Shown here: piece by piece, positions 26,880 through 51,600 of the stretch
How positions within the stretch are numbered: position 1 is the stretch's first letter
Layout: each line of letters starts with the position of its first letter
Source of the DNA: Craspedostauros australis
Taxonomy: Eukaryota > Bacillariophyta > Bacillariophyceae > Mastogloiales > Achnanthaceae
NCBI GenBank assembly: GCA_026770025.1
Contig: JAMXDE010000009.1
Location: 620,001-684,000, forward strand
Reading direction: 5' to 3'
DNA length: 64,000 bases
The notes under the pieces: generated by a model
What the model was told of the DNA's origin: nothing
Databases searched by the model: none
Seen by the model: the letters and a program-made list of their open reading frames with translations, nothing else
Program-made: the position numbers and the translations under genes

Positions 26880-28729
26880 GGGCGGAGAGTTGATGGAGGT
26901 TGCTTTGTGATCGCCATCGAGGCCAGAGCAGAGTAGAAGTATCTGGAAGCATGCATGATCGCACTTGCGAGCAGGGTAAGGACACCCACATCGTGCAGGT
27001 TGCAACGAACTTTCTCTTTGCCGCTCAGGTCAACCGTTGAATAGCCTGGCACTCATGCTTTCCTTTGCAATGTTTTGCTTGCTTCATGTGAAAGCGAATG
27101 GACGTGCGTGTTCGGAACATGCGGTCCCAAGATCCTTGTCAATTGCTTCCGAACAACTCTTCTGCAAGTGTGCTCGAGTACATCGCGGGTACAACTATGC
27201 ACAGGTTCGCTGACACACAGAGCTGCGTGACGACGAAGCTCGTTCGCGGCGCATGGGCTGACTTGCTCATACCCACTGGCGCTCGAAACGCATGTGCTCC
27301 GAGTCGCTTTGAGCCACGCCGATTCGGACACGAGCAACAGATCGATCAGCACATGGCGAGTGCATCTCCGTCTGCTGTACGAATCGATGAGAACAATGGG
27401 AGCTCCGCATAGAAGAGTAGAATAGGAATGGAATAGTGATACTGGTGGCGAACAGGACTGGCACAACTCCAGCACTCCAGCACCCCCGCCACGCCGGCAA
27501 TCCATTCCATACATGCAGTAGCACTACGGTCGCTTGATACTGACCGTGCTGAATGGAGTGCATATCATGGAGATGCAAGGTGAACAGCAACACCAACATC
27601 ATGCGACGTGTGAAGCTGTGAGTACGACGGCGAAACTGTGCGAAGAATGGGTGGTGTGTGGCTTGCCTTTCACTTGGTAGCTTGGTCGCTTGGTTGATTG
27701 ATCGTCGCAGAGTGTTGCTTGCCATCACAAAACATTGCGAATTGTGGCGAATTGTAGCGATCTGTTTTGCTGTTCACTCGATAGACGAGAGTTGTCTCAA
27801 CAAAGGACAACAAGTGGACATTGAGCCGAACAATAGGGGACCAAACCACGAGCGTGCGATATTTGTAGCTATTCCACTTAGTGAGATCGATCGATTCAGT
27901 TCTTGATCTTGTTGCGCCTGTCGGCTGCAGTCACCAATCAAAACACGCGGGCGTGACATCCAGTCATTCCTAATGTCGAACAAAACCAACGCCACAAATT
28001 CAACACACCACTTCACATCACATCACATGTTCTCTGTGTGGTGTCACTCCCAACACTCGTCTCATGGCCAATACTCAAACGATGTCGTTCATACCAGTAT
28101 CAACAATCGGCACCGCTGGTACTATTAACAATATTAGCACTATTATCCCGTTTAGTACTGTTGGTGCTGTTGAATTGATGCTCCAATCCATCACAACAAA
28201 CGATTCGCTGGAGTCTCGGCACGAGCGAAACTGGGGGTACGGGTGAGAAACAAGACCAATTGCCATGATGGATACATAATATGAGCACTCCAGAAGAGTG
28301 AGAGTACATACTAGTATGATCAAGTAGATGCAACAGTCGGTGGATCACCCGCTCGAGCAAAATGCCATCAAGATGGATCTTGCTCTTGCAATCCGCAACC
28401 GATTGTAGTCCTGCGCCGACATGTATCTTGGATTGGACTCAATTCGATGATCGATCGAGATGCGCCATGCACAAGCCATAGAGCAGTATCAGTCCTGTAT
28501 ACTCCTCCTGTACCAGCGAACGAGTGGAATGCAGGAATACATGAATGAGTGGAATGCGACCTCCTCTGGGGAGTGGATTCCATTCCATCCCTCGTCGTCT
28601 CTTCTCATCTCATAAAATCAAATCGCATTCAGCAACAACAATATCAGCACATCACAGCAACGACGTACTCGTACTCGCACTCGCACTCGCCATCAACACC
28701 AACGCCAACACCGACACGAGCGAGCAACC
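26479..28729. other. Intergenic, 2.25 kb
   Basis: No gene I can support on either strand. It contains an uninterrupted (AG)n run at about 26847-26876, preceded by CTCTCT, so it can also fold back. Just upstream of the trypsin start, A/T-containing sequence 'cataaaatca' (about 28607) and a 'ctcgcactcgcactcgc' run are seen. Confidence 0.5.
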
Positions 28730-30350
28730 ATGAAACTTTCATCAGCCCTTCCCATCTTCATCGCAGTCATCGCGACTGCCTCAAACATCGCTGCATCGGC
28801 AGCAGACCATCATTCTGCCGTCGGCCGTGACACCCAACATGACACCAAAGGACGCGCACTCAGAGGCGGTGCCCACACCAACAATCCTGCTCTGCATCAT
28901 CATGATTCTCACACCAACGCGAAGAAGACCACGCGTGGCGGAGATCGTCCAAAGAAGCATGGACATGGCAGCAGCCCAACCCACAACAAGCGCACCCACT
29001 CCATCAACGCCAACAACTATGAGACGCACATCGTGGGAGGAAACGAAGCGACGAAGGGAGAGTACCCAGAGTTCGTCCATTGGGCCGTGGGATGCGGCGG
29101 ATTGCTCATCGCACCTGACATCGTCCTCACTGCGGCACATTGCGACTCCGATCAGACCATCAGGATGGACGCCATCATCAGCGCGTACGATGAGTTTGCA
29201 TGGAACCAGCCAACAGGACCCAACGCACGCAAGATCGATGACAAGCGCGTCCATCCAGACTATGCCGCCACTCAGATCAACGACATCATGCTCTTCTGTC
29301 TATCCAACCCTGCACCATCCAATGTGTCCATGATGAAGATCAACAGCAAGTTCGGCACTCCAGGCACGGACGGCTTGGGAAATCCGCAGACCATGACGGT
29401 GATTGGTTTTGGAGACACATCGGACGGTGGCTCTCCATCAGAGACTCTGATGGAGCTGGACATCCAGCAGGTCGATACTGCGTGGTGAAACGATCAGGAC
29501 AGATACAACGGACAGGTCAGCGATGAGGCGGAGTTCTGTGCTGGCTTCGTGAAGGATGGTGTCCACCAGGGTGCCAAGGACTCGTGTCAGGGTGACTCTG
29601 GCGGTCCCGTGTTTGTGACTGAGGGTGGCGAGCGCGTTCAGGTGGGCGTGGTGTCTTGGGGTATCGGCTGTGCTCAGCAGCGATATCCTGGTGTGTATGC
29701 TCGTGTGAGCAACACGTATGAATGGATCAAGGTACGTACATCCGAGTAGGTGCATGCATGTCAATGCATGATGGAAGCATGATTGAAGTATGGTTGAAAC
29801 ATGAAAGAGTATGGTGAGTATGGTGAGTATGCAAAGATATATGGTATGATCACAGCAGCGAGCTCACTATTCCATTCCATTCCATTCTATTGTGCTTTTC
29901 CCCACTCTCCCAATACTCCTACACCCACAGGAGAATGCATGTGCCATGTCCAAAGTACCATCCGAGCTGTGTGGCACAGGAGGCGGAAACAGCGATGATG
30001 AGAATGACAACAACAACGGTGATGGTGGCGATGATGACAGCTCCTGCATCCCTGTCACGTTGAAGCTCCACACCGATGATTTCCCAGAAGACACATCCTT
30101 TATGATGTATGACTCTCAAGATTCGAGCACAGAGTATTGGAATGAGTCTGGCTTCATTCGGTCCAACACTGAGTATCCTGAATACAAAGCATGCGTTCCA
30201 CGTGATCGTTGCACTTACTTTGATTTCTTTGATGCCTTCGGCGATGGCATCAGCGGAGACGGCTTCACGTTGACCGCCGACGGAAAGCAGCTGCACTCTG
30301 GTGGCAACATCGGATCGGAGGTGTTGAAGAACATTCCTGATGGTTGCTAG
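28730..30350 (+). CDS. Secreted trypsin-like serine protease with C-terminal extracellular module; in-frame TGA
   Basis: Exon 1 is 28730-29731 and exon 2 is 29931-30350 (donor AAG|GTACGT, acceptor ACACCCACAG|GAG, phase 0). A signal peptide covers residues 1-25, then a His/Lys-rich propeptide. The protease starts at IVGG (101), with H137 (TAAHC), D185 (NDIML) and S290 (GDSGGP). D284 six residues before the serine predicts trypsin-like Lys/Arg cleavage. Exon 2 adds an acidic linker and a diatom-type module (DDFPEDTSF ... [10 protein letters not shown] ... GGNIGSE). Codon 253 (29486-29488) is TGA, in frame, with perfect family similarity on both sides. It falls where chymotrypsin-fold proteases have the Cys that pairs with the one in FCAG (C270). 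Possible reasons are a sequencing error, a young nonsense mutation, or selenocysteine recoding. As read literally the gene is broken. Confidence 0.85.
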
Positions 30351-31744
30351 AGCGAGAAGAGAGAGAGAGAGAGAGAGAATAGAGAGGATGGATTGTGTGT
30401 GAGACAACAGAACGGTCTTTGTAATGCCAATAGCAACAGCAACGCCAACGACAATGGCAGCATTATGCAATCCTCCTCTTCCAAGTACGTGTGTTCCACA
30501 ATAGAGTAGTCGTAGGAAAACCAATCGGAGCGTGGTTGCTCACACAACTCCAGAATGTAGGATCGTGTATCACAACAACCGTTGATTGCTTGTTGTGTAC
30601 TCACGCGGATGCACCATCACCGTTCGAATTGTGGAGCACATACCGACGACCGCGGTTGCTTGCGCTGACGCGGGCAGAGGCAAAGCATGAGAGGAATGAT
30701 AGGGTGTGCCAGATCAAGAAGGGAGGTGTTGCCACCCAATGCGCTGCGATGATGGCTGCTTGTGAGGAAGCGGGAGTTTGTTGTTATTGATGGATTGTGT
30801 GTGTGTTTGTGGGGAGGTTGGATGGGGGTGGTGGACAGTCAAGGCGGTGTGTGAAATGCCAGGACCATCCTTGTGGAGGACGTTGTGCAAGCACAAAGGG
30901 ATCCTCCCCGTGTCAAAAAGTAGTTTCAACAAGTGTCGGGCGATGCCCGACAATACTTCGTTAAAAGATATTAGAACAGTTACTACACAAGATCAAAGCC
31001 AATAGGCGAAGAGAGATGGGTGTTAGAAAGGTGCGCACACGCACAGGCGAGGAGAGGAGTTGATGCTGTGTGATGCTCATCTCGTACAAATTCCGCAGAA
31101 TGGGCGAGGCGCTGATGTGTGTGTCCCGATGGCGCTTTCCGACCACCTTTTTTATTGCGCAGTCTACCATACTTGCATGAGCACAGAGGATGCCGAAGGG
31201 AGAGGAATGAATCTTGTGCGCATGTTATGGGCGAAGATGGAGTTGCGAAGGTAGACACCCACGTCGGATGACTCGCGAGAGGGGCTTGGGTTGATGGACG
31301 GAACTGGAGTTGTGGAATGTTGGAGGAGGCGGAGAAGCGATTCGAAGTGATCAAAATGAGATCAAAGGAGGCTTGCCAAGCCCAACAACCGGTCAACAGA
31401 CGAGGTAGAATACGAGGGCAGGCGGCACCAATCCAACACCAACTGCTGATCCGCAGCATGGGTGTTGCGTATCATCCGGCAGACCGCACTGTGATGGTTT
31501 GATACAATTTCTCTACCCATCTTCCGATTTCTACACTAATTTTCCATTTCCGGACATCTGCCTCTCGCGTGCTCTTGCTGTCTCAACGCCTCGACGTGGG
31601 CCTTTTCATATTGGTATCATGCGTGCATGTGCATGTATGTGCGTACATGTGTGTTTGTGCGATACCCCGTCTCTATGTTTCCCTGGACTATCGACGGATG
31701 AAGCTGCCGCTGTTTCCCCTTCAGATCCTGCTTCGTCTCCTTTT
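30351..31744. other. Intergenic and trypsin 3' region
   Basis: A (GA)n run (about 30359-30378) follows the trypsin stop within 10 nt. No gene is seen in the remainder. I found no convincing SECIS-type hairpin by eye, but this cannot be excluded without folding. Confidence 0.45.
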
Positions 31745-33131
31745 TTACATGATGGCGCAAGGATTCGTGAAGCATTCTTCCTTGTTGGAACCATCAGCCC
31801 CGTCGGCATCTTCCACGATCACGGCAGCTCGATCCTTACTTTCTCTCCGCGACATCGCTGATTCGTCAGTGACGAACGAAGCTATTGACGCGACAGTCTC
31901 TGCAGCCAGGGACTTTCGTTGCTCCAGCGCGCTGCGGGCAACCTTCGGTGTCTTCTTTGGTTTGGCGGAGACCTTTTTGGAAGTGGAAACGGCGCCAGCC
32001 GATGCTGCCGGTTTTGGCTTCTTCGGGCGTGTGGCCTCCTTCTTCTCTTTCCCTCCTTCCGAAGCAGCAGCTTCATCTGCGTCGCCTGCGAAAAATTCCT
32101 GCGATGATTCCATCACAGTTCCGATACTGGCCCTTGGGGTGGTGTTGAGTGACATCTCGGTTTCTTCCGAAGTGTCACGTTCTGACCGCGGGCGATTTTC
32201 CGGACCATACATCACACTCCCGTGGCTTTCGATGCTCAATCCAGACGCAATGGAGCTGTCGCTCTTCGCCTTGCGCCCGCGACGGAAGACTTTTCGCAGA
32301 ACAGCGCGTGGCGATGTCATGACGGATGATGCGTTGCTCATGGTGGAGATGTCATCGTCACTGTTCTCGGAAAATTCGTCGATGGCGCTGGGGACTCCGT
32401 CCGGGCCGATGTCGCGCGATGGCTTGATCCCGTTCCTGCGGAAGGAACGGCTCATGTATTTCTTGCCGCGGCGGTGGGAGATCTTCCATTCAGGGTGCCG
32501 CGATTCGACCATTCTGCGGATTTGGCCAAACGATGGCATGCGCGACTTTGCTTCCCCTTGTCCGCTCGGTTTCGCGTTGGCTCGGAACTGTGGAGATGCA
32601 TGCAGCAATCAATGACGATGAAAGGAAAGGAGAGATGACAGTTCGAAAGTGTGAGATGCAATTGATGACGCAAATGGATTCATGTCCGTGTGTACTATCT
32701 TCACATGCACGTTTGCAAGGTGCCTTGTCATCGTCGTGAGATTCTGAATCCGCCAGTGGGCAACATAGCTGATCCGATTCATCACGACCGGCTGTGCAAT
32801 GGGAGAATCGGAGGCGATTCTCTGTGTCACGGCCGTCTCTCGATTGCCACATTTGCGAACAGGTGTGCTTTCTCAACATTATCATCACCGTCATCGAATG
32901 TGATGCACGATGATCCCAACTGTTGTTCCGAAACGCAATCGCATCATGCGATGCCATCCATGGCTTGCTTGGTTTGTCACGTACAGTCTTGATTGCGGTG
33001 TGGAATGCTGCCGTGAGTTGCATCCCTGACGGCCGGACGACCTCGACGCTGGCGGCGGCGTTGTTGGGCTCCTTGGCAGTCGCCGGTGGCGCACGGCGAT
33101 CGCTCTTGGAACGGAATCCAAACTTGCCCAT
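31745..33131 (-). CDS. Small CaaX-box protein, paralogue of the gene at 37.8-44.4 kb
   Basis: Exon 1 is 33131-32985 and exon 2 is 32587-31745 (donor ACT|GTACGT, acceptor CTCCACAG|TTC, phase 0), giving 329 residues. Exon 1 encodes a basic start (MGKFGFRSKSDRR) and ASVEVVRPSGMQL. Exon 2 opens with a basic helix-like element (IRRMVESRHPEWKISHRRGK), then SPRAVLRKVF and YGPENRPRS, a Lys/Ala-rich stretch, and the terminal ECFTNPCAIM. The last four residues, CAIM, form a CaaX box with Met at X, which favours farnesylation; the extra Cys six residues upstream could be palmitoylated. Every one of these elements recurs in the large paralogue. No known domain is recognised. Role inferred only as a membrane-tethered, largely disordered adaptor. 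Confidence 0.82.
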
Positions 33132-35769
33132 CTTGTTGCCTTTCCTGAATGCTTTATATTTTTATTTGAATGTGTTTGAATGTCTTTCAATGTGCTTCAA
33201 TGAAAGGACGGTGTGTCTCAGTGTCTTTGTGGTGGAGTATTTGCGTTCACTTCGCTTGGTGCGCGCTCTGATCGACTTTTGGTGTGCTGTTGATGAGCAA
33301 TGAAAATGATGATTCAGGGTGATGCTGGGAATTGTGGCTTTGTGTGGTGGTGTGTGGTGGTGTGTCATGGGTGTGGTGTGTTGTTTCTCACCGGCTCGGC
33401 GACACCAACAATGATGGTGGCAGCAACCACTCGCTCAACGCGTAACGCACAACGCAGGCACCGCCAACGATCAACAAATCGTTCCATTCTGCCTCCGAGT
33501 ACCCGTGACTGTACCCTCGTGGCTGCTCTCTGTCGTTTTTCTCACCGTGCAACCTTGACACCCTTTACGGGTTGTTCTCGCGCGTTGTTGCGAATCCTTC
33601 CCACAACCGTCCACAATCGTCACGCCACAACCCTTCCCAGCCAACGGTACGGACACGCGACGGGATTGTTGCGACGGCAACGACGAACAACAAGCAACTC
33701 GGAGGGCGATTGATGCACCACGATCAGACAGCAGATACGCCCAAATGGACAACGAACCTCTCCTGTGATGTGTTTGATTGGGCAACTCCGCCACCCACGC
33801 GTAAGTCTCAACATTCTCACGTGTTCTGCTCTTTCGCACGAGAAGTGTTGATGCAACTGAGAAACTTGTTCGATGTCTCGCCACGGCAATGACAAAAAAT
33901 CCAATAGCCCCTTGTCAATCCCGAATATCAGTGGTTTCAAGCCATTTTGGTCGATCGAGTCAAACACCCGTCGTGTTTCGAGTTCGTCATGAGAGAGCGA
34001 TGAACGGACCAACCGAAGAAGCACAGACGTGATATCTGATACTTAGAATTCCGAACGACACAGATAAGATGCCAGAAGGTCCCAATTGACACAGGCACGC
34101 AACAACGAGTCTCACTTTGTCGCCAGGCATCATCGGCGCAGCATTGCCTGCAACTCGGCGTGGCGCTGCGCGGTCGGCCAGCATCAACATGAGCGCCACG
34201 GCATTACCATTGTCATCACAAACGCGATCACACAGACCAACTGGACAACTGGACAACAAAGCAGCAGCATCGCTGACAGAGTGCGCAGTTCGGCCATGCA
34301 AAGCTCAATGGAGTATGATATTTCCAGATGGCCGTTCAATGGATCATGGCGCACCCGTGGCAAGAGGCGATGCTGTCTTCCTTTCTCGGTTGCCCCTTGT
34401 GTTGGTTATTCCTCCTTGGCCTTCTTGATCGTGAAGTCGTTCGCCACAATGCAAAATAGAGTTGGTTGGAGTAGGATAGAGAAGAGTTGAATACCTCCAC
34501 ACGCTTCTCAAGTCCGGAGTACTCTTCGGAGCAAGACAATTTGGTGCATCTCGGCGGATCCATACTCGCACATCCCGTCAGCAATCCCGCTCACTGCAAC
34601 CAACTCCATCCTTGTTTGTACCATACGTAGATATGGCCAGCGGCATCGGGTGCCCACTACCATTGCGAGGTACTGATGCGTTCATCCGCGCGGGGCATTC
34701 GGAGATAAGGCAGTCCGTGTGGCAATCGCTTTCAATAGCTTCGGTGGATGAAGAGCTCATCGATTTCACGTGCGAACGAGGGGTTTCGCTACTCGTGCAT
34801 ACGTCTACTCCTGATGCACATCTTCGTCTTCACATTGCCGCTGTCGCTGTAGTCATCTTGTGAAATCGAGTGGAGACTGGCTCCATATCGAATTCTACCC
34901 CCACGCACCCGTCTCCGCCGTGGTGCATCCAGGCTATTTCGTCATGAGCAGCAATACATCTTTCCTGTGTGCGCTGACTTGAATGGGATAGAGAAGACGA
35001 GAGCAGAACACAGTAGAGTAGTGGAGAGTAGGTCGCTCTATTGGTTGGGAGTAAGTTGGCAGAGTATGGCAAGAGTAGGTGTGGTAACACGCTCGCCCAA
35101 CGAGCGGATCAGCACTTGGATCGGTTGGCACGACACATGCTTCGTGGGCACTTTCTTTGTGACGAAAGAGCGCGCAATGGCGAAGCCTGTCCTGTCCGCA
35201 AAGTTGGCAAGCGATGGAACGAGCGGGAAATCTCGGCAGATCCATGGTGCGCAGGCAGCATTGGCGACTAACTCTCCCAAAAATGCTCCAGTTTGTGCAT
35301 CGCCACACTCCAAAGACCACAACCACTCACAAAGGCTCAACGTTCAACCTCGCCGACCACACACTCCGACAACAACGAAAGCGCTCAAGCAATCTTCGAT
35401 CCTTCAAGATGATGGTGCCGAATCGGCAAAACGACGCCCAAGGGAAGCACGAGAGGACCGAAAGTGCCCCAGCGCTTTTGATGTCCGTATCTTCTCTCGT
35501 CGTCATCGGAAGATGATTGGCGATCTCTCGTGGTCACCACTGATCCAACTGTTGTCAAATCCTTTCAGGTGACACCACGGGGAACAGAGCAAACAGAGCC
35601 AACCATGAAGGATGGCTGATTGCGACTCAGCTTCCGTCGTGCTTTTCCACTGCAAATGCCAGGAAGTCGTCCGCTCCTCGATTCTTCATGTATCTCATCT
35701 CACAAATCCAAGCTCGACACAAAGAAAAAGCAAACACATCAACAAACCAACCAACAGCAAGCTTCCACC
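33132..35769. other. Intergenic, 2.6 kb
   Basis: No gene I can support. A 201-codon frame at 34967-35572 has no domain and a composition unlike the neighbouring genes. The last 100 nt before 35770 are A-rich (for example 'acacaaagaaaaagcaaacac'), as expected for the leader of a strongly expressed gene. Confidence 0.45.
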
Positions 35770-37149
35770 ATGAACTTCCGCAAGGCCACTTCCTTCATCG
35801 TCGCTGCCATCGCCATGGCCGCCCACGGCGCCATGGCTGCGATTGGCGATGACTACATCGACGCCGTCCCTGCCACTGTCTACGAGGCCGCCGATCTCTC
35901 TCCACAGAACATGGACTACGACAAGGCCAACAAGAAGTTCATCGCTCACGGAGGATGGTACAACAACCGCCTCATCCACTACTACAAGTTCCGCATCTTC
36001 GCTCCAGGCACCTACCCAGATCTCATCAAGGGACCACCAAACATGAGCCCAGCCTCAGATGTCCCAATCCAGAAGGTCATGATGGCAACCACCACCGGAG
36101 ACTTCACCGGTGTTGTTGGAAAGCCAATCCTCGAGTTCCACACCAGCAATGGCAACTCTTATTCCGACTTCATGAACGTCAAATTCGTCATGGTTGATGA
36201 TACCTATGTTGCAGACACCTTCAAGAGTGCCGGGGATGTCATCACCAGTGGCAATACCCTCAAGGAGACCGACATCATCATGAACTTCCCGGTCGTCCCA
36301 ACAGGATCCTCCCTCCAGAGCCCAGTGGACAAGGCCGCAACCGCCCCCATCAAGCCCATCACCGCCTTCTACAAGGGACAGGAAGTTCAGACCTTCATCT
36401 TCGAGGTCAACAATCAGGCTGCCTTCGACTACTTCAACCCCAAAACCCGTGATCAGCCAAACGATGCCGACTACGCCATCCCAGTCGTGACCACCTTCGC
36501 CAGCAAGACTGCCGTCACATCCATCCCACTGTGGCATGTGAACCAGTTCACCCGTGGTGTGTCCGCTGAGAAGGGCAATCAAGGCGGACCAAGCGATGCC
36601 GGTATGCGCAATCTGATCAACCTCGACCGTCCAGATGTGGGATACTCTCCATTGTGGCAGCTGTTCTGGGTCACTGAACTCCCAATCGACTACTTGGCCG
36701 ATCAGATTTCTATCAACACCGAGCTTACTGCCGCCAACGGAGCCGCCTTCATTCCAACACCGATGTATGTCAACTGTCCAGATGTTGGTCCAGTCGGCAC
36801 CGCCGACAACGCAGACCGCCAAGAAACACACCAGCTGAAGCTCGATCTCGCCCAGGAATCCAACTTCGTGCTTGGATCTCATGCGGACTTGCTCTTGAAA
36901 GAAGGATTGGACGTGAAGATCACCACCGAAGATGGCACCAAGGTGGCTGAGGGAAAGACCAATATCATGGGAGCATACGAGATTGAGGTGAAGTCGTCTG
37001 ACATCCCGGATGGCACCACCAAGCTCAAGGTCATGTACGGAACCAAGGACATCCGCACGCTCGAGGTTGAAGACACCTCTTCTGATGCATCCAGCATCGC
37101 CATTGGCATGAGCATGGCCGCAGCCATGCTGGTTGGAACGCTCATGTAA
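35770..37149 (+). CDS. Secreted, probably membrane-anchored protein of unknown function
   Basis: The start at ATG 35770 is preferred over the further-open upstream frame because it places a clear signal peptide at the N-terminus (residues 1-23, hydrophobic core FIVAAIAMAAHGAM, then AIGDD), giving 459 residues. Residues about 30-360 form one large domain without recognised motifs (landmarks FIAHGGWYNNRLIHYYKF, PLWHVNQFTRG, GYSPLWQLFWVTELP). Residues about 375-440 (VKITTEDGTKVAEGKTNIMG, then YEIEV) look like a small beta-sandwich of the carboxypeptidase-regulatory type. The C-terminus is a Ser/Asp stretch followed by about 18 hydrophobic residues and no basic tail, which fits a GPI-anchor signal. 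Codon use is strongly biased (ACC, ATC, CCA, GGA), suggesting high expression. A cell-surface or frustule-associated protein is plausible but unproven. Confidence 0.88.
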   Translation: MNFRKATSFIVAAIAMAAHGAMAAIGDDYIDAVPATVYEAADLSPQNMDYDKANKKFIAHGGWYNNRLIHYYKFRIFAPGTYPDLIKGPPNMSPASDVPIQKVMMATTTGDFTGVVGKPILEFHTSNGNSYSDFMNVKFVMVDDTYVADTFKSAGDVITSGNTLKETDIIMNFPVVPTGSSLQSPVDKAATAPIKPITAFYKGQEVQTFIFEVNNQAAFDYFNPKTRDQPNDADYAIPVVTTFASKTAVTSIPLWHVNQFTRGVSAEKGNQGGPSDAGMRNLINLDRPDVGYSPLWQLFWVTELPIDYLADQISINTELTAANGAAFIPTPMYVNCPDVGPVGTADNADRQETHQLKLDLAQESNFVLGSHADLLLKEGLDVKITTEDGTKVAEGKTNIMGAYEIEVKSSDIPDGTTKLKVMYGTKDIRTLEVEDTSSDASSIAIGMSMAAAMLVGTLM

Positions 37150-37792
37150 ATACATGACTTATTCGCAACATGCAGTCGATTTCTCAAGAGCGGACATTCA
37201 ACAAATAATATAATAGAATCGTATTATGTACAAGCACGAGTACCATGCTCTGCACAAGGCCAATCCGAGCACAGCACGACAATAACTCATTTGGAACATC
37301 AATAGTTTTGTAACTCCAGCCCTGTTCAACCACGACGCAGATGGGTTGTTGTCCCATGTACCCGATGACTCGTCCTGAAACAGAGAACGCTCAGATCGCA
37401 CAGCCAAGATAGGCAGCACAAGCACTCACAATAGTCAACAATCTTGTTGAGCACACTCATTGTCTCTATCAGCAAAGGCTTTGTGTGCGGAGCACGTTGA
37501 ATAGGATGCATGGTCTCATCACAATCCTCATTGTCAAGTTTTTGTGAAGAACTCCGTTTTTCGGTTTCCTCTCAGTTCTGATACGCAGCGCAGCACCAGC
37601 GTAATTTTCGAATTCGCGTGGGAGAAAAGTGTGCTCTGCGATCTGCTCGACTTTGAGTAGATCGTAATCTGCTCGTGCATGCTTTGACTGCAGTTGCGAT
37701 GGAATCTGATGTGTTGTGTAATTTAACGGGATATTCCTAACAAAGCACATTATTATTCTACTCCGGGTGGTGCTCCTCTGTGCCACTCACTA
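37150..37792. other. Convergent 3' flanks
   Basis: Two genes end towards each other here. AT-rich sequence near 37200-37230 ('aataatataatagaatcgt') may hold poly(A) signals. No gene. Confidence 0.5.
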
Positions 37793-40700
37793 TTACATGA
37801 TTTGGCATGGAGCTCCAAAGCATTCGCCCTTTCCTGGGCGCGAAATGAAGGCCTCGGTGTCGTCGTGGTAGTCGTACGCATTGATGGCTCGGTCTGTCTG
37901 ATGCACATCACGCGTCATGGATGCTTCGGTCACGATTTGCTTGTCTTCGTTGATGATGGAAGCGTCATCACCACTGCCGTCGGCATCATGGGCATCATCC
38001 GTTGGAGCTTTGGATGCTGGCTGGATGGTGGCCTCCGTGTCCATGACGAGCGCGGCCATTTCCGCAATGATCGAGCTTGCGCGTTCCCGTTCCTCTCGGT
38101 TTGGGGCATCAGCGGCGGAAGCAGTTTCGCTCGTGGCATCCTGGTCTTCGTCTTCGTCAACCTCTGCCTCTCCATTGGCATCCTGGCCCACGCCTGTATG
38201 GTCACGCACGATACTCTTGTCTTGCGATGTCGGCGTTGATGCCTTCATTGGTTGTTCAGACGCTTCCAAGCTTGCGCCTCGTTCGAGGACTCTTGCCAGC
38301 TCCATTTCCTCGTCGCCTTCGTCTTCTTCGGAGCTGCTGGCAATTGTCTGTGCTTGTGGCATGTCCTCCTCTTGGGTGAAAGACTGGAGCAACAGAAGCC
38401 CACGCTCAAGAGCTGCTTCCTCGTGTTCCTCGCCGCCTTGATCTTCTTCGGAGCTGCTGGCAATCGTCTGTGCTTGTGGCATGTCTTCCTCTTGAGAGAA
38501 AGTTTGGAGCAATAGGAGCCCACGCTCAAGAGCTGCTTCCTCATGCTCCTCTTCTCCAGTACTGTCAACGGCAGCCGACTCTGCTGCTGGCATGTCCGCA
38601 TCCGTGTCCTGGGCGAGGCTCTCCAGCAGCATGAGCGCACGCTCAAGCGCTGCCTCCTCGTCTTCTTCCGTCCTGGCAACCTTCAGAGCAGGCATCTTGA
38701 CTTCTTGTTCCACTTCTGGTTCGGATTCATCCTCTCGTTCGACATCCGGCTGCTTCGTTTCTTGTGGTGCGAACTCGTCGGTCCCGTTGTCCGACCTTGC
38801 GTCTTCGGTCGGCACGGGCGCAGTCGGTGATTCTGCGTCATCTTCTGGCTCGGACTCTGCAGCGGATACAAAGTCCTCCAAGGAATCAGCCTCGACGTCT
38901 TGGCATGGCCTGATCTCCTCCGGCAAGTCGAGCGCACGTGCTGTGGCATCGATAATTTGCGCAGCGTCAGTGTCATGCCCGGTCTCGAGCATTTGAGAAG
39001 ACTGGAATGTCTCTGTAGACTTTGAGTCGACTTCGGCGTCGCGGTCGTCGGGCCCTTCGGAGCTGACAGATGGCTCTGATTTCAAGGCATCCACAATCGC
39101 TGTCAGCTGCTCGGCTTCTGCGACGGAATCCTCGGATACGTCGTCGTCATCATCAGCTTCGCCATCGACATCATTCTCGCGGTTGTCCGGCAAAGGATCT
39201 GCGGAGTGTTGCATCGCCCCGTTAGGCATATCCATACACTCATCGCCAGGCCATGTGTCTCGCATGAGGCTTGAAGCGGATGCGGGTGAGACCGAGTCAT
39301 CGTTGTCTTCGTTGTCTGCAGGTGTTGCAGAGTCAAGGAGCATGATTGAGTCGATTGCCTCCTGGTTGGGATGCTCCTTCAGCTTTGGCTCCAGCTCGGA
39401 TTCTTCCACGTTCCCTTCTTCACGTTGGTCATCCGTGGTGTCAAGAACCGCGGCCCCTGTTGCCGCAACCGCTGCAACTCCGATCAGCGCTGCTGTGTTA
39501 GCATGCTTCTCCAAACCTGCGACGTCATCGTTTTGCTTGTCGTCGCTGTCGCGAATGGTGGCTTCGTCTTCATCTTCGTCAGACTTCACGGCCAGTGGGG
39601 CATCCTGCAGAGCCATGGGCACAGCACCTTCCTCGTTCACGACTGGACGTCGCTCATCCTCTCCGGATGGAACGGTGTCCGCATCGAGAACGGGCTGGGA
39701 CTCCAAGCCTTCATCGACTTGTGATGTCGCTGCTTCCATTTCAGTGGCATCGTCATCCCCATTCGCATCATCCTTGATATCCTGCCCGATATCCGATTCT
39801 GCGTCTTCGAAGATCTCGATGGAAGATGATGGCTCCAGTTCGCCCTCCAACTCAGGCCCCGAGTCTTCACCGTGGTCGAACAGTTCTCGTTGCAGAACGT
39901 CGCCCTGCTGTTCATCAACACATTCTGCCTCCTGATCCACTTCAGGTGCTTGTGGCATGCAGGCAGCGATGGCGACCTCTGATTCGGTCACAGCAACCGT
40001 CTCTGGCTGGGTGAATGACGCCGGTTGCTCGCCCAGTTCACCATCGGCTGCGACTTCGGTCTTGTCGTAGACTTTGGCTGCCGCCTCCACATCGTCCTCG
40101 AGTTCGTCGTCGGGGATCTCTTCTGCTTCAGCTTCCGCCTCCGACTTGGACAATCGCTCTGGTTGCGGCACCTCCTCACCTTCGACGGCCGATGGTGTTT
40201 CTGAGTGTTGGCTGAGATTCCTTGTCAGCATCGTTTCAGCTGCAAGGATCTCATCGTCCTGCGGTTGTGCCCACGATATGGAGTCTTGCGCAAGGCCTGG
40301 CTGACCCGTAATCGATTCTGCCTCATCCTCATCTTCGTCTGAATCAACTGCGTCCTCCAGATGTCCCTCTGCGCCCAAGGCTCGTCCAGAGTCGAGTTCC
40401 GCTGACGACGCAAGTTCAAGCACTGCTGTTGTGGCTGCAGATGTCTTGATTGTGTCATCAAACTCTTCCATCGGTTCTTCATCCAGATCCTGATCCGCAA
40501 AGACGGGGTCTCGCACAGCTGGTTCTGAGGAGACGTCAAATTCGCGCATGGTGATGGAGCCTTGCATGCTGTCTCGCTGTGACGCGCCAACTAACAAGTC
40601 TCGGCTCGAATCGATGTCGGCCTCATTCTGGAGATCGGATCCTGTTGTCACATCATCTGCGTCGTGTTCTTGGATTATGGCTGCGCCGGCGGCCAGGGCC

Positions 40701-43700
40701 GTCGCAGCACCGATGACAGCGCCGGAATCGGTGAAGTAATCCTCCTCCTCTTCTGGCTCGTGGCCTTCGATGCTTCCATCGTCGTAGGATTCAATGTCAT
40801 TCCTGAGGATCATGTTTTCCCATGAGTGTTCGGGTTCCAGTTCGGGCTCTGAGTCCACCTCATCTGCATGGCCCAGCAGATCAGTGATGGTGATTGGATT
40901 GGATCCACGTGCGGGCACCTGATGGGACGAGGCGAACATCTCGGCGTCCTGCTCGGTTCCTGAAGTGGCTATCGATTCGTTGTCGTGCTGCGACTTCATC
41001 ATCGATTCCAGGTCTGCGTCCTGCTCCAGATCGGTTTCCACTTGTCGGAAGGTTGTGCTGTGTAGCGTTTCGTCTGCCTCGTCGCGTGCTGAGATAGTTG
41101 CGAGATCAGACGCTTGCTTTGGTGCAAACGGTGGCTGAAACGATGACATGTGTGCTGATGCGAATTCCTCGACAAGGTCGTCATCTTCGTCTGGAACTTC
41201 ATCAGATTCCATGCCGTCCACAAAGACGGACAGCTCTTCTCGATCAGGCATGATGACTTGGTCGATAATGATGTTGGTTTCGGCCTCTCGCTCCACCGCA
41301 TGAGACTCGAGTTCGATGAGCTCGTCCGCATCTTGTTGGGACCCATTTTCGGAGACAATGTCTGCGTCGTCCATGGATGCTTCGTCTTCCTTGTCCTCGT
41401 CATCATTCTCGTCTTCGTCTATGCTCGCACTCACGAACGCAGATTGCGTGGAAATAGACGGCTCCGGTGCTTCCTCCGGCTCGTCTTCGTCTTCCAGTTG
41501 CTCCTCGTCCTCATCCAAACTTGCACTGACAAATGCAGATTGCATGGAGACGGAAGGCTCTGGTCCTTCCTCCGGTCCATCTTCGTCTTCCTGTTGCTCG
41601 TCGTCCTCATCCAAGCTTGCATTGACAAATGCAGATTGCATGGAAACGGATGGCTCCGGGACTTCCTCCGGTTCCTCTTCCTCCTCCTGTTGCTCCTCGT
41701 CCTCATCCAAGCTTGCATTGACATATGCAGATTGCATGGAAACGGATGGCTCCGGGACTTCCTCCGGTCCCTCCTCCTCCTCTTGTTGCTCGTCCTCTTC
41801 ATCTTCTTGTTGGTCTTCTCCTGCCACTGCGGCTGCTGCGGGGTCCGGCAGTGCCAGCGACTTGATTTCGTGCCCCAGCACCTTCTCCGGTCGCTCTTCA
41901 GCAGGTTCAGCTCCCGCCTGTGCACCTCCGCCGTCTTCCAACTCGGAGTCTTCATCAACCATCTCCTGCAGGGCTATGTCTTGCTCCTCTTCCGATGGTG
42001 CGAGATCGTACATGGTTGTTGCTGCTGACACAGCGGCCTCCAGGGGATCAGCCCGTGATTCCGTATCTGGCTCGGTCGGTGTTTCTTGTTGGTCGGGCAC
42101 GGGCACGGGCGTGGACTCGGACATGACGGCGTCGGTGTCGAACGATTGGTCCATTCCCAACACGTCTGGCTCGGGCTCTTCGTCTTCTCCTCCGGCCTGT
42201 TCTGATCCCGCGGTCATCATTGTATCCGCTTCCGATGAAGCATCTGGATCAGCGGCGGACTCGGCCGTTTGTTCCGTGTCGGTGACTGGCGGAACTCCTG
42301 ACACTACTTGGAAGGAGTCTGACGCCGGCTGCGTCTCCAGCACGGTCGTCTCATCCGCATCATATTGCGTGCCGCTGCTATCGTCGTCGTTTTGGTCCTG
42401 CTGTTGCAACGTTGTTGTTGCCGCTGCCTGGAGGTCCTTCGCTAGGATGGGCTCTATCGCAGCCTCGTTGTATGGCCCGGAGTCAGCGTGCTGTTGTTCT
42501 TCGTCGTTGTCTTCACTATGGAACATCGCAAGTGCAGCGAGGTGGTCAGCTGGTGCAGTTGCTGCATCAGGTGCCTGCTCCTTCTCCTGCCCTTGGTCTT
42601 CTTGTTCCTCGTCCTGTGCTGGGTTCGAGAGGCGTTCCGTCTCTGCAAGCGATTCGGACGTGGCCTCGGTCTGAGAGATGTGCTCGGGGTCGAGCTTGAC
42701 GATCGCTGCCGGTGCGACAACAGCTGCTTCTTCTGGTTGTGGTTCCGCATCATCGGCTTCATTCTCGTCTTCGTCGACCTCAAACTCGATGTCGGACGTG
42801 GTTTGCGAAACAGATCTGCTGGCCAATGTCGCATCTGCTTGTGCATCATTTGCTTCCGCTGGCTCAGCAACGAGCGATGGTGCCTGTTCGACGACTAGGT
42901 CGAGTTTGGCATCAACAGCATCAAGATCTTCTGGTCTCGCGTCAAGGTCTGCGGCCGGGTCTGAGACCAGCGGTTGTGGCTTCGTGAGTTGTTCGGTGTT
43001 TTGCTCCGAAAGTTCCTCTTCGGCTGGCATGCGGTCGAGCTTCATGACGTGCTCAGCATCCTGATGAGTTGATGCCTCTTGCACCATCTCCGTGCTGTTG
43101 CCTTGCCACTCCTCTTCCTCCTTGAGGTCAGCCAGGTGAATGTCGCTGCGAACACCATGGCCTTCTTCATCTTGATCTTGATCATCATCGTGTTCCTCCG
43201 CCTTTTCAGATTCTTCGTCCACCATGACATCGGCTCCGGTTCGCATCATGGCAGCCGTTGCAATGCCGGCTCCAAGCATCTGTGGCAGGGAGAGGGCGGA
43301 AATCTTGCGCTCCTCCTCTTCATCGCGCTCCTCCTCTCGGTTTTCCTCCTCCTCGATGACATCGACCTCCAGGTCCTGCATCCTCGATATGCTGGCGGCA
43401 GGGCTGGCGAATCCGGTTGCACGGTCCATTGCATCCATCGCATCCGTCGGTGGGGGGTGCGGGGCGCCTTGCGGTGAGAGCTTGGTGGTGTTGACGCGCA
43501 ATGGGCTCTTGTGCATGCCGGGGCTGGTATGCGCATAGTCGAATGTCCTCGGACTGCCTTGCATCCTGGGGCTTCCATGCCTCTTGGGACTGCCGTACCT
43601 GTTCGGAGTGAGCGGACTGTCCGCGCCAGTGAAACGCTGCGAACGCGGCCGGTTTTCGGGCCCGTACTGCGGGCGAGGCGAGACGTGACCGCCCCCAATG

Positions 43701-44418
43701 ACGACACCCGTGAGGTTTTTCGGCTTGCGTTGACGGTGGAAGACGCGGCGCAGCACGGCGCGCGGTGACGGGATGTAGGAGACGGTGCTGACGGTGGAGA
43801 TGCTATCGTCGCAGTTCGATGTGGAATCTCCGCTGACGCTGCGAGAGCTTCCCATCATGCGGACACCACGTGGTGGACCATCGCCATTGCGAAGGGCGCG
43901 GCCCAGATGCTTCTTCGCACGGCGTTCCGAAACCCTCCAGTTGGGATACTGCGATCCGATGATCTTGCGGATTTCGTTGACCGTTGGAACGGGAGCTTGT
44001 TCGGCGAGATCATCCCCGTTGTCCAATCGGGCGTTCTTGTACTGTTGTTAGTGGACCATCGAGATGAATGATCCACAACAATCATATTATGTGATACAAT
44101 ATCACGAGCATTTGGGAAAGAAACGACAGAAGAAAGAGAGAAGCGTGAGCGTCTAGGCTGGTGCATTCATTTCGAACTCCACTCCGCTCCGCTCCGCTCG
44201 ACGCTCAACTCAACTCGACATAGCTGGACTGGAAATCAGGAACGTACCGTATCCAATGCACCCTGCACTGCCAACTGCAGCTGCTGCGACGTCGGCCGGA
44301 TGATCTTGACACTCGCGAAGATCCCATCGATCTCGCTGTCGTGTTCCGACGGAGGGGCTGGTTCTCGGTTGGAACCGAATCCAAACCGCTTCTTCAGCTT
44401 CGGCTTCACCTTGCTCAT
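37793..44418 (-). CDS. Giant acidic CaaX-box protein
   Basis: Exon 1 is 44418-44248 and exon 2 is 44041-37793 (donor ACG|GTACGT, acceptor CTAACAACAG|TAC, phase 0), giving 2,139 residues. The first exon (MSKVKPKLKKRFGFGSN ... ASVKIIRPTSQQL) aligns with exon 1 of the small paralogue. Exon 2 opens with IRKIIGSQYPNWRVSERRAK, SPRAVLRRVF and YGPENRPRS, again as in the paralogue. About 1,700 Glu/Asp/Ala-rich, probably disordered residues follow. They hold two internal tandem repeat arrays and three short Ala/Gly-rich hydrophobic patches (for example IGAATALAAGAAII and IGVAAVAATGAAV). The terminus is GECFGAPCQIM, a CaaX box (CQIM) predicted to be farnesylated, with a second Cys nearby. It looks like a long tethered acidic filament on a membrane. 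The catalytic content appears nil. Function unknown. Confidence 0.85.
38310..38690 (-). repeat. Coding tandem repeat, 40-residue unit, three copies
   Basis: Within the giant acidic gene. Two copies 120 nt apart are nearly identical (HEEAALERGLLLLQ then EEDMPQAQTIASSSEED), and a third, more diverged copy (DEEAALERALMLLESLAQ) precedes them in the protein. The Leu pattern suggests short amphipathic helices spaced by acidic linkers. Confidence 0.85.
41425..41815 (-). repeat. Coding tandem repeat, about 31-33-residue unit, four copies
   Basis: Within the giant acidic gene. Each unit carries PEPSVSMQSAFVNASLDED followed by a Glu/Gln run of varying length. The unit core is better conserved than the acidic spacer, so the PEPSVSMQSAF segment may be a binding motif. 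Confidence 0.85.
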
Positions 44419-45651: not shown

Positions 45652-48600
45652 TTAAAACAGCACCAGCAACTCGAGCAGAGGTGAGTTCGGATCGCCCATC
45701 AGGCTGTTCCCAGACTCGTCCTTGCTGTATGGGCCGTTCCACGTGCTCGCGCCTTGTCGCAGGCTGCGCCCCTGCGGCTTCTGAGATTTGGTCAGCTGAG
45801 AATTCTGCGTCGATGTCTGCGCCTGCGCCTTTGGCTGCGTCTGCGATTGACGAAGCTGAGACGGCTGCGATTGTGATTGTGATTGCGACTGCGCATTCGA
45901 CTGCCGGGCGCCATTGGCTCCGCCAGTTCGCGTGCTTGGTACAGATGCCTGCTGCCGACCCCCTCTATGCATCAGTGAGGTCGTCGCTCCGGACGCTCCG
46001 CTCGTCTCGGCTGCGTTGGACAAGGAGAGGTAGGCTTGCGCAAAGATGCAACGGATGCTGCTCCATGCAAAGCAGCTCCTCGCCACGTTGTTGCTTTCTG
46101 CACCCTCCAAGGGATCGTAAACAACGATCGGATCGACTGTTAGCATCCCCGTCATGGGGTCGTACGAGCCGGCCGACTTGCGCTGGATGTACGGCGACAA
46201 CGGCGAATACAGCTTCCCGCCGCTGTAGTCTCGCTCGTGCTTCCCGGAGTAATCAATCGCGGTCGCCTGCGAATCAAAGTGCTGTCCGTAGAAGAGCAGA
46301 AAGTGCATCAGCAGCTTCCCGGACGTTGTTTCGCCAGAACACAGCACTTCGATCACATCGTGGAAACCCTGCGGAAAGACCAAACCGTTGTTGACCAGAG
46401 AGGCATCGAATGCTGCCGGCTGATGTCGTGGAAGCGGCGGTTTCGGAGTCTTCGATTGGGCCTGATGCGAGGACGCTGCTGCCGTTGTTGCCGCCGCGGT
46501 TGACCTGCGTCTTGCCTCCCCATCTCTCGCTGCACTTGCTTGTTGGGCGGCATGGGTTTCGGTGACGAGCTTCGGTGATTTTGAGGTGTCTGATTGATTT
46601 GGGGCTGCTGCTGTACCAGAAGTTGATGGCCTCATCGCATGTGCTTGTGCTGAGTTCGTTTGCGGCGACGACGCAGACACAGCCGGATTGGACGATGATG
46701 CTGATGCTGATGATGGTGCGAGCGGTGCATTTCCAGACATTTGTTTCTTTGAGTTTGTGAGTGTGGACTTGAAGATGGCGCTTGGCGTACTCGTACCTGG
46801 TCTTGGCTTTTCCCCAGCCTTGTTCATCTCTCTGCTGGCTCCTTCACTGGGCCGTGGCTGAGACACAGCAGAAGTAGCTGGTGCTGCAGACGTAGACTTG
46901 TCAGGCTTTGCATGAGATGGCTTCCCCATCATCACCTTTGATGCGAAGGAACCCTTTGCGACCGCATCTGCGAATGAGTTCACCTTCTTTGGAGCAGGTT
47001 GGGCCTTATCGGCGTTTTGACCAGCAGCCGCGGATTGGTCTGCCCTCGTCTTCCCTCTAGTAGTTTGTGCGGAAGGTGCGGACTTCGATGCAGTCGGCTT
47101 CTTCGCGATGGATGCCCAGGACGAGGTAACTGGCAACACTGCTTTACCTGTTGATCTTGGCGCTCCCTTTCTTGCAACTGCCGCAGCAGTGGTAGACGCC
47201 TTTGCTGTGCCTGCTGGTCCGGTTGCGGATGATGGCGCCGGTGTCGACTTTCTCGATTGCGCATTTTTCTGAGTAAGCTGCGCTTGGCTTGCAAACGTCT
47301 TTCCAGCCACAACACCACTAGTTCCTCGCCTCGTATCGGCTGCTGCATTTGATTTTGCTTCCACTTTCGGCTTCGTTGATGAATGTCGTGAACGCACCTG
47401 TTGAGGTTGAGGTTGAGGTTGGTGCTGTTGCTGTGTGGACAACGACGTCTGTTGTTTGCTGGATGCAGAACCTCTGGTTGCTTGCGCAGTGGCTGGTGCT
47501 GGCTTTCCCTTCGCTGGTCCTGTTGTCTGCGTCGCCGCTCCGACAGCATCAGACGCCGATGCGGCCAGTGACGAAGATGGCTTCACTTTTGCTGCCTCGC
47601 GTTGCTCCCTTGCTTGCCCAGTTGGTGCAGGGCGCACAGTCTCGGCAATTCTGTTGCTGTTGCCACTGCTGCCGTTGTTGGACGCAGCGACGGAAGCCAC
47701 CGTTCGTTGGAATCCAGTTACGCTGACCCCTTCTGCCACAAGCCGTCTTTGACGCTCGACCCTTTCGAGCTCCTCCCGGATGACTGACCGTTCTCGCATC
47801 ATGGAAACGACGAGCAGGAGCAAAGCGTAGCTGCTGAGACCGCCCGAAAACGGCTCGTTCAGTCTCCGTTGCGCCAACAGCTCCTTCAGTACCATCAACG
47901 TTTGAACAGCGGGGGTGTCCTCCGGTCGCAGGCCTGTTTGGATGCAAACGTCTTGCACAACTCTCGTCGAGAACTCGGTGGAGCCAATGCCACCATGCTC
48001 GGGCCCTTGGAATGTGATGTCCACCTTCAAGAGGCCATTGACGACATCCGCACCGCGCCAAACTGGCGGAGTCTGTGTGGAATGGAACAGCGATGAATGT
48101 TGATGCGAACCCGATGTTTCCAAGTGCTCACCGCCACTGCTGTGGCCTGGCGCTCCGACTTGATGGTTCACAGCACCTTCCTGCCCAACCATCCAGTTGG
48201 GTTTGCCAGTGGCGGAGGCCAGTCGCGCTGGGTCGGCGAGAATCTTCACAACAGGAACTGTCGCTGTTGGGATGGGCTTGACTTGCACTGCCCATGGTTG
48301 CGCCTCCAACTCTTGCGCCAAGCGCAGCACTCGCTCACCATTCGTCGTCAGACCCCCCATCATCATGACGGGACTCATGTGTCGATGCTGAGGAGGGTGT
48401 TGATGGTAATAGTTTTGTGTCTGCTGTTGCATGCGATGGTGGTGATGCGAGTGATGTTGCTGCTGTTGTTGTTGCTGTTGCTGGTGCGTAGGTGAACCAT
48501 CGAGCCTCTGAAAGTTCGGATTGCCGCTCTCCACCGAGCTCGTATCAGAAGCAATTGTGCCACCTCCGGTGGCCACGGATCCGCCAGGATGATCGCTCGT

Positions 48601-51600
48601 CTGGCTGGATGGTACACCAGCCATATTCATGTGTTGCAAGTGCATGCTGTCCAAGCCGCAAACCACCACATCCAAATCAGATGAAGGCAGGTCGAGCTGG
48701 GTCGCGCAGCTGCCGTACATCTCGACGGAGCACATATCAGGCCAGATCCCCTATTGTGATGTCGTTGCGCAAACGTAGAGCAAAGTCACGAGCATGTAGA
48801 TCGCCGGTAGCGTTGTCAATGGAATTGTGGGAAGAAACATGAAACCGGAATGAATGTGAGGAAATTGTTGAAACCGCGTCATCCTTTTGACTTCAACAAG
48901 CTTTTTGCGATGGATTCGTGTATGCGCACGCGCACATCCTCAAGCAAGCAACAGAAGGACTTACCGAGAGCGTCTCCTCAAGGGCGATCAACACAGAGTT
49001 GCGCTCGGACCGACGTAGCTGCAGCGCGTGTGATCTACGACGCATGAACACCGTCATGTCCCGAGTCAAGCGGTCGCAAACATCCAACAAGTGATATCCA
49101 ACATCATTCTCGTCGACGGCCGACGATGACAAATGATGGCGACCTGAATGCGGTGCATCAAGGCTGGAGGCAACGGACGACCCGGCGCTGTTGGCATTCT
49201 CGGGGCTCAGCAGGGTCGGCAGCGGCGGCGAGGCTGAGGACTCGTTCTGTGTCTCAGAGATTGTCTTCTGCGTCCTTGGCCGCTGGTGATTGGCGCTGTC
49301 GCCAAGACTCGAGTCGCTCCTCACGATGTTGACTTGCTGCTCATTCGGTTTGCTGACCTTCGGTTCCTTGGGCACAACGCCGTTGGTGGTCATGGAATTG
49401 GTTGATACAGCAGAGAGTGTTTCTGGCACAGTCGTGGTCGTGTTCTGATCGATGCTGGTTTGCGCTGCCTTGTCACGCCCAAGTCTTTTTCCATCGTTTC
49501 TAGGCTTTGGCGATACGTGAGTGCGCCTCGAGGTGTCTCCAACGGCAGACTTTTTGGGGAGCACGCTGATGGGTTTCCTCGCGGAAGGAGCGGCACCATT
49601 GTTGGATGTTCCCAATAGCACGTCGCGCAAGGTCCCTTCCTTCGGTGATGCTGAAACCGAAGTAGAACCAGACCTTCGGGACACGGATTGCTGCATGGAT
49701 GACGGCTTAGCACCACTTCCTGAGTTGCGGTTTTCAAAGCGAGATGGAGCAGGCCACCGACTGGAGGTTGGGAGTCCAGGGGCGTCTCTTCTCAAGGGCT
49801 GAACACGTCGCCGCTGGACTTCGGTGTCTACAGCATCAAGCACCGTCGAAAGGATCTCCCTTGCCATCTTGCGATTCGCGGTGCTTCTGCGTGCAGCGCG
49901 GCTCCGCGGTGTCTTCGACTTCTTCCCACCGCTCGAATTGCTGCTGGAACCGAAGCTCTGCTGGTTGCCGAAGCGGACACCTCCCGACTTCTTGCGGTTC
50001 TTTGATCGTACTTCAACCGTCTCCCAGGCGTCGTCATTGTCGTCGCCGTCGTTCGCTGGAGCTGCTGCTGCTGGCGGTGATGGTACGGAGGTTGGTGACA
50101 CGCTGCTGGCTGCTGTCGCGTCAGTGCTGTTGTGGGCGTCGCCCTTGGGTGCGCGATATGGTGCTGCAGTTGTGTTCATGTTCCCGCTCGCCGGACTCTC
50201 TGATTTCGTGGAAACATCAGTCGTCACTGACGCAATCGATTTCGCATCCTGCTCGACCTTCGCATCAATGTGACCGGCATCAAGAGACGTGGAGCTTGCT
50301 CTGTCGGACCGGGCATCGTCACGGCTGGCGTCTGCTGTGCTGTCGCTTTCGATTGGTTGCTGCTGTGGTTGCTGTTGCTTGCGAGATGCTCCAGGCATGT
50401 TCGATGCCACACTCTTTTGAGCTTCGTGTGTCGATTTTGACTTCACGGTGCCAGCGTGCGTATCACCCGATGAAAAAGCACCCTCGATATTCCCCAAGGA
50501 CACACGAACCGCCGTCGCATCATCTTTACCATCGTCAGCTTGCGAAAACTTCGACAGGTCCTCCAGAGATGTGTTCGACGCACCCAATGATACGTCTGGA
50601 CTTGTCTGTGTGGATGCATCTGCTGTTGAGTTTTTACGCTTCTGTGAAGACATAAACATCGTGCATAGAACAACAAGACAGTTAGTCAGTGAGTATGGCC
50701 AATAGAGCAGAGTATCCGAAGTTGACAAACTGATCGCAATCTCTTCGATCCGTCACAAGCATGCATTGAGCAGACCATCACAATCCGCGCAAGCGAAAGA
50801 GCGCAGTACCATTCTCCAAGAGGTGTACCAACACCGGAAACCTTGTTTCGTTTCGTTTCCTTTCATTTCGTCTTGTACTCGTAGACTGTAGACGAGACCG
50901 AAATCATCGAGTCCACGTCGAGAAGCAATTAGCGGAGCAAATGAACCGACCAACTCTTACCTTTTTCTTCTTGTTCTTCCTCTTTTTCTTCTGCGAGTCG
51001 TTGCCTTCAGCAAGTGTCGCGGCAGCCGCATCGATCACAGAAGCCGGAGTTGCGCTGACGGTCACTTTTGAATTTTGTGCCGCAACGTCAATGATCTCCG
51101 GTCCGGTCTTTGGATCATCGGTGGGGGGATTGACGACATCTTTTTCCACGGATGTCGACTTCGTCTCAGCACTTGCTTGAACGGGTTCCGGATTATTGAT
51201 GTCGGCGACACTGCAAGTAGATGCCTGTTCCGTCGTCGCTGTGGTTGCTGCTTCTGCTGCAGCCGATGTGTTCACTGCTGCGCTTGGCATCGGCGAAGCA
51301 GTGATGCCAGCAACAGTGGTCGAAGGCAACGCAGTGCCAGGTGTCGCAGCTGTCCATGTTGCAGGACTTTCTTCATCAGTGGTGGCGTTCAACGATGATT
51401 CTGGTTGTAGTTTGTTGTCGAAACTCGTCAATGATTGACGAAATGAGTCGTCCCACCGATGGAACAGTGCGGTCGATGATGGAATCCCAAGCGACAGCCA
51501 GCCCGCGAGCCGAGTGACTGGACTCAGGAGAAGATCCTGAATACTGACCTCGATCTCGATGGTGGACGGCGTCGATATTGGCTGTGGCAAGGCAGCGGGA

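Follow-up and report, generated by a model that had tools for sequence, protein, structure and literature searches.

Paralemmins (PALM, PALM2) form an animal family of flexible peripheral membrane proteins that carry further cysteines in the tail beside the CaaX box. The prenylation of PALM2 is treated in excerpts of PMC10393820. Lamins, among them NE81 of Dictyostelium and the oomycete lamins, join basic clusters to a C-terminal CaaX box and are recognised by their rod and lamin tail domains (PMC4448529 and PMC5630835, in excerpt). The present work concerns a 64,000-nucleotide stretch of the genome of the diatom Craspedostauros australis (contig JAMXDE010000009.1, positions 620,001 to 684,000 of the forward strand), referred to below as the window and numbered from its first letter. 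It contains a pair of genes, both on the minus strand, which encode CaaX-box proteins of 329 residues (gene A) and 2,139 residues (gene B).

By analogy, A and B would work most like paralemmins or polybasic-CaaX tethers. The likeness to paralemmins, an analogy only, lies in a flexible protein with a prenylation-type CaaX tail and a further tail cysteine. A and B match no Pfam family, and the PxW, SPRAVLR and YGPENRPRS elements described below are not known from paralemmins. The Ras and Rho tethers resemble the pair in combining electrostatic contact with prenylation, whereas A and B have no GTPase domain match in Pfam and carry their main basic region at the opposite end of the protein. The pair also resembles the basic-aromatic effector domains of MARCKS type, since Phe stands among Lys/Arg residues close to the N-terminus (KKRFGFGS / GKFGFRSK); A and B differ from them in having no Pfam match and no N-myristoylation signal. 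N-myristoylation was rejected, Gly2 of A standing in a poor context and B having no Gly2. Like lamins, A and B have a CaaX box and basic clusters, the latter being candidate nuclear signals, but membership of the lamins was rejected, as neither the rod nor the immunoglobulin-like (Ig-like) lamin tail domain has a Pfam match in A or B. We lean, with slightly better than even confidence, towards A and B being diatom paralogues from an old duplication that act as largely disordered, farnesylated peripheral membrane tethers, in which the head is basic and the spacer sets reach and charge.

Gene structure and the common head

The genes are separated by about 4.7 kb from the start of A to the stop of B and are built as follows.

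33131-32985, minus strand: gene A exon 1, 49 codons, with the basic-aromatic start MGKFGFRSK followed by ASVEVVRPS
32588..32984, minus strand: gene A phase-0 intron, 397 nt, GTACGT..CACAG
32587-31745, minus strand: gene A exon 2, 280 codons and stop
44418-44248, minus strand: gene B exon 1, 57 codons
44042..44247, minus strand: gene B phase-0 intron, 206 nt, GTACGT..AACAG
44041-37793, minus strand: gene B exon 2, 2,082 codons and stop, containing the acidic spacer

The initial annotation of the window, made from the letters alone, had read these genes as paralogues whose first exon is short and whose phase-0 introns coincide in position, and the alignment bears this out. In the head, 72 of 201 columns are identical between A and B (36%, blastp expectation value (E) 2e-31), and the introns, both of phase 0 with GT..AG ends, fall at the same aligned residue, between T49 and F50 in A and between T57 and Y58 in B. 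Neither 397 nor 206 nt is a multiple of three, so intron retention would put an unspliced transcript out of frame. The similarity between A and B spans the exon junction, which gives indirect support for splicing, and we infer that exon 1 is joined to exon 2 in both genes. The common GTACGT donor, also offered earlier as a link between the two, is indeed present in both introns. However, it is weak family evidence and was set aside, since GTACGT is the apparent donor of the neighbouring trypsin-like gene as well (29732); the gene for the beta subunit of geranylgeranyltransferase I (GGTase-I), elsewhere in the genome, has GTGCGT. The real family evidence is the common intron position rather than the common donor.

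All the motifs that had been named are present in both proteins: FGF, ASV[EK][VI][VI]RP[ST], P-x-W-[KR]-[VI]-S-x-R-R-x-K-K, SPRAVLR[KR]VF, YGPENRPRS and the terminus ECFxxPCxIM. The claim that conservation is confined to these islands was overstated. The ends are conserved and the spacer is divergent, as had been noted, but the similarity of the head is unbroken over ~186-193 residues (~190 in round terms), with strong spots within it. Its main elements are located as follows.

32429..32536, minus strand: gene A helix-PxW-helix element, protein residues 67-102
43883..43996, minus strand: gene B helix-PxW-helix element, counterpart of the element in A
32285..32314, minus strand: gene A SPRAVLRKVF basic element
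32183..32209, minus strand: gene A YGPENRPRS element; the pattern YGPENRPR matches two places in the genome, this being one
43644..43666, minus strand: gene B YGPENRPR element, from the pattern search of the genome

Despite the 36% identity, the net charge of the head is almost the same, at +18 for A and +17 for B. Across 195 aligned codons, a simple count method gave a nonsynonymous divergence (dN) of 0.56 and a synonymous divergence (dS) of 1.24, the latter being high and hence imprecise, and different codons are used at 36 of the 75 identical residues (Met and Trp excluded). These counts and the differing codons fit constraint acting on the protein. The assignment of A and B as neighbouring paralogues is supported by comparison of their sequences.

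An AlphaFold model of gene A exon 2 was built from two sequences, with a mean predicted local distance difference test score (pLDDT) of 53.4 and a predicted template modelling score (pTM) of 0.21. Only the PxW element was modelled with confidence, its ten-residue blocks scoring 90, 89 and 81 (exon-2 residues 21-50). It is predicted to form two helices, residues 69-79 and 87-101, with the connecting loop carrying PEWKIS. The SPRAVLR helix is less sure (block pLDDT 60 and 49), and for 155 of the 280 residues of exon 2 the pLDDT is below 50. No match of SAP/HeH or HMG type was found for the helix-loop-helix element in Pfam at E up to 10, with a profile against PDB or with Foldseek; the last used the poor whole model, so a match by fold may yet exist.

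Tails, spacer and the proposed tether

Both proteins end in a CaaX box directly before the stop, as had been described.

31745..31774, minus strand: gene A tail CFTNPCAIM and stop, CaaX box C-A-I-M
37793..37822, minus strand: gene B tail CFGAPCQIM and stop, CaaX box C-Q-I-M

Read with the preceding glutamate, whose codon is GAA in both genes, the tails are ECFTNPCAIM and ECFGAPCQIM. They are identical at 8 of 12 residues, a level reached by none of 200,000 composition draws, and the tail as a separate blastp piece gave E 0.023. The first a position in B is Gln, which is non-aliphatic. Of the 329 residues of A only two are cysteines, both in the tail: that of the CaaX box and another five residues upstream of it. 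B retains this pair and contains five additional cysteines. Met at the X position favours farnesylation (PMC12609287, in excerpt). Farnesyltransferase, the enzyme that would modify such tails, is represented in the genome by a gene for its beta subunit (G000:C6:1552339), identified by top PDB matches to beta subunits of this enzyme (3e-76). Separate genes encode the beta subunits of GGTase-I and of Rab geranylgeranyltransferase (Rab-GGTase), and alpha-type PPTA repeats occur at three places in the genome. The tails of A and B are of the type that farnesyltransferase favours and are most likely farnesylated, and the upstream cysteine is a candidate palmitoylation site. The tails might instead stay unprenylated, ECFxxPCxIM serving as a protein-interaction peptide or its cysteine pair forming a disulfide or binding metal. 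Conservation that reaches upstream to E-C-F-x-x-P, beyond what a CaaX box requires, speaks for this, but we consider it improbable, given that both paralogues terminate exactly in a C-a-a-M of the farnesyltransferase type before the stop and that the farnesyltransferase beta subunit is encoded in the genome.

A further C-terminal island common to A and B, absent from the initial annotation, is possible. It is placed at the following positions.

31817..31945, minus strand: gene A C-terminal modelled helix, residues 264-306 (43 residues), block pLDDT 50-75
37973..38095, minus strand: stretch of gene B that may correspond to this island, residues 2040-2080

When residues 272-316 of A were compared with 2040-2080 of B, the score was reached by 15 of 2,000 shuffles.

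Between head and tail the proteins diverge strongly. The spacer measures ~130 residues in A and ~1,930 in B, and the acidic middle that had been described holds for B, with a net charge of -462 after the head, and not for A, with -2. In B, the content of Asp and Glu is 24-40 per 100 residues in all 18 bins of residues 301-2100. The spacer of B also contains the following features.

41408..41803, minus strand: in-frame tandem repeat, 96 bp (32 aa) x 4.1
38306..38551, minus strand: in-frame tandem repeat, 120 bp (40 aa) x 2
43247..43303, minus strand: Ala/Gly-rich hydrophobic stretch 1, residues 304-322
40670..40726, minus strand: Ala/Gly-rich hydrophobic stretch 2, residues 1163-1181
39437..39493, minus strand: Ala/Gly-rich hydrophobic stretch 3, residues 1574-1592

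Both repeat units are multiples of three, and the three hydrophobic stretches have mean Kyte-Doolittle values of 1.3-1.8 over 19 residues. On the opposite strand, a 452-residue open frame (41316-42674, plus strand) runs antisense to the acidic spacer; it is probably a by-product of the Glu/Asp codons and no gene. The density of acidic residues, the net charge of about -460 after the head and the tandem repeats would all suit a B that is mainly a polyanion, a calcium or cation buffer or a spacer brush, whose sequence is of little importance and whose relationship to A is a leftover of duplication. We find this highly doubtful: head and tail look constrained in both proteins, so the ends are not mere relics, and a pure brush would not need the three hydrophobic stretches.

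In the favoured reading of A and B as membrane tethers, the fixed working ends would be the head and the lipid tail, the middle setting reach and charge. Cytosolic farnesyltransferase would modify the last cysteine of C-A-I-M and C-Q-I-M, and palmitoylation of the conserved cysteine five residues upstream of the CaaX cysteine may supply a second anchor. The basic head, comprising the FGF start, the helix-PxW-helix element and the SPRAVLR cluster, would bind an acidic partner, which may be an anionic membrane, an acidic protein or a nucleic acid. In A the middle is short and near neutral; that of B is long, bears a strong negative charge (about -460) and would have been lengthened by in-frame tandem duplication. 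We infer the membrane site and the roles of head and spacer from these features.

Several points weigh against the tether. The AlphaFold model, made from two sequences, is poor overall, so its low pLDDT is weak evidence of disorder. Among ten hand-picked segments (five per protein) assessed for helical moment, the second PxW helix alone stands out in both paralogues, its level being reached by 0.02 and 0.008 of shuffles; the SPRAVLR segment is unremarkable (0.07 and 0.27). The stretches of the C-terminal island were picked post hoc, and blastp of longer C-terminal parts aligned other, low-complexity stretches and not the island, which makes that result a modest one. GGTase-I can also accept Met (PMC12609287, in excerpt). 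Finally, the basic clusters would equally suit nuclear signals or nucleic-acid-binding elements.

This last point leads to the nuclear envelope, where the basic head would act as an import signal and contact chromatin or DNA while the farnesyl tail would be embedded in the inner nuclear membrane, the proteins being lamin-like or lamina adaptors without being lamins. In lamins a CaaX tail goes together with a nuclear localisation signal (PMC4448529, PMC5630835, in excerpt), both heads contain several Lys/Arg clusters, and the element modelled with confidence is predicted as a small basic helix-loop-helix. Eight of ten Foldseek rows were histone, nucleosome or HMG-box chains, but all ten had E of at least 5.5 and amount to noise. 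Against such a role, Pfam gave A and B no match of the rod, Ig/lamin-tail or SAP type, and the stramenopile lamins reported in PMC4448529 and PMC5630835 are from oomycetes, the word 'diatom' occurring 0 times in the main texts of these papers. We regard a nuclear-envelope function as rather unlikely. The two-point tether is the best reading and the nuclear envelope its main rival, and sequence alone cannot separate them.

Searches for relatives and the genomic neighbourhood

The genome searched comprises 74.8 Mb in 90 contigs. With the A protein, head pieces and the N-terminus of B and three DNA patterns as probes, no third family member was found in it. The patterns YGPENRPR, CFxxPCxIM-stop and the W..RRxKK core each occur at two places, in A and in B, and at none in a reversed control. 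Exon 2 is a strong probe (E 4.8e-22) and exon 1 a weak one, that of A finding exon 1 of B at E 1.15 and the N-terminus of B finding A at E 0.09. Besides A and B, the protein searches gave five weak rows (E 0.86-5.2); no family motif was found at those on contigs C50 and C29 (tblastn) or C29 and C14 (translations), with C16 and C77 left out.

Pfam contains no family for spliced A or for exon 2 of B (best E 0.32, below the cut-offs), nor for exon 1 of either, and gave no match for the PxW pieces (59 and 58 residues) at E up to 10. NCBIfam has no match for A or for B, exon 1 of B included. No relative was found in PDB by sequence, the best hits (E 0.82, and 0.39 with the profile of the PxW pieces) being unrelated, and a Foldseek search of PDB with the mostly low-confidence whole model of A gave 10 rows and no match (best E 5.5). 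None of 30 pattern matches in IMG/VR viral contigs and none of 94 in GTDB prokaryotic contigs was confirmed; these collections are viral and prokaryotic, so their null results are weak evidence about diatoms. In the open-licence literature on CaaX, prenylation, farnesyltransferase and isoprenylated proteins of diatoms, no such family appears in titles or the beginnings of abstracts, and the string YGPENRP is absent from the open-licence literature. Within these portions, prenylated proteins of diatoms seem to have been little described. The earlier statement that no described family has this layout agrees with the Pfam, NCBIfam and PDB libraries searched. The family is not yet named, and 'new' would here mean absent from those libraries and from the viral and prokaryotic contigs. 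A and B may be described as putative disordered proteins of prenylation type whose head is unknown to the libraries searched.

Around the pair, a U2 spliceosomal RNA gene adjoins gene A (30826-31019, minus strand; RF00004, 102 bits, model positions 1-192 of 192). The longest frame between A and B is 35620-37149 (plus strand, 509 codons), with no Pfam match below E 0.13. A poly(A) polymerase-like frame at 45652-48735 (minus strand) has long low-complexity Gln/Ser/Ala stretches and two Pfam matches below the curated cut-offs. The trypsin-like gene (28730-29731, plus strand) is interrupted by an in-frame TGA at 29486-29488, a position which we take to be that of a cysteine. The frame stays open for 81 codons past the TGA, through GDSGGP to the GTACGT donor at 29732. 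The TGA would be a nonsense allele, an assembly error or selenocysteine; an Rfam scan of 28600-33500 found no selenocysteine insertion sequence (SECIS) element.

Elsewhere in the genome, contig C90 encodes a Rubisco large subunit that scores up to 1,072 bits against solved Rubisco chains, the top entries being from diatoms. The number of silicon transporters is striking, with at least 88 PF03842 matches genome-wide; among the matches listed, 28 of near full length are free of stops, and a further 4 of near full length contain them. The Rubisco and the many silicon transporters are the grounds on which the genome is taken for that of a diatom. In excerpts of the literature, the number per diatom is given as 3-8 (PMC10328945) or typically 3-5 (PMC10700740), with more than 30 in some genomes (PMC13403384). 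For the Parmales, the sister group of diatoms, genome sizes of 31.0-43.6 Mb and 1-2 silicon transporters per genome are given (PMC10328945, in excerpt), although they are also placed among the groups with higher numbers (PMC13403384, in excerpt). Six loci (L034-L039, on C2, C61, C24, C37, C11 and C9) have in common a unit of ~1.7-1.9 kb with 93-97% DNA identity. Beyond it little or no match was found among them, except for L034 and L035, which have 3.9 kb in common. High identity of the unit with little match in the flanks suggests recent dispersal or gene conversion.

Fixed ends and a variable spacer

A more far-reaching proposal, speculative and improbable as a whole, is a diatom-lineage family whose members combine a lipidated tail with a small basic domain of a new kind, the helix-PxW-helix. 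B would then be a membrane-tethered polyanionic loop or brush, its head held by charge and its tail by farnesyl and palmitoyl groups. It might line a membrane that faces the cytosol, for instance around the silica deposition vesicle, or form a stand-in lamina in a group from which no report of a lamin was found. With fixed ends of basic and lipid type and a spacer of ~130 to ~1,930 residues, the pair offers a natural experiment on spacer length and charge in a disordered membrane tether.

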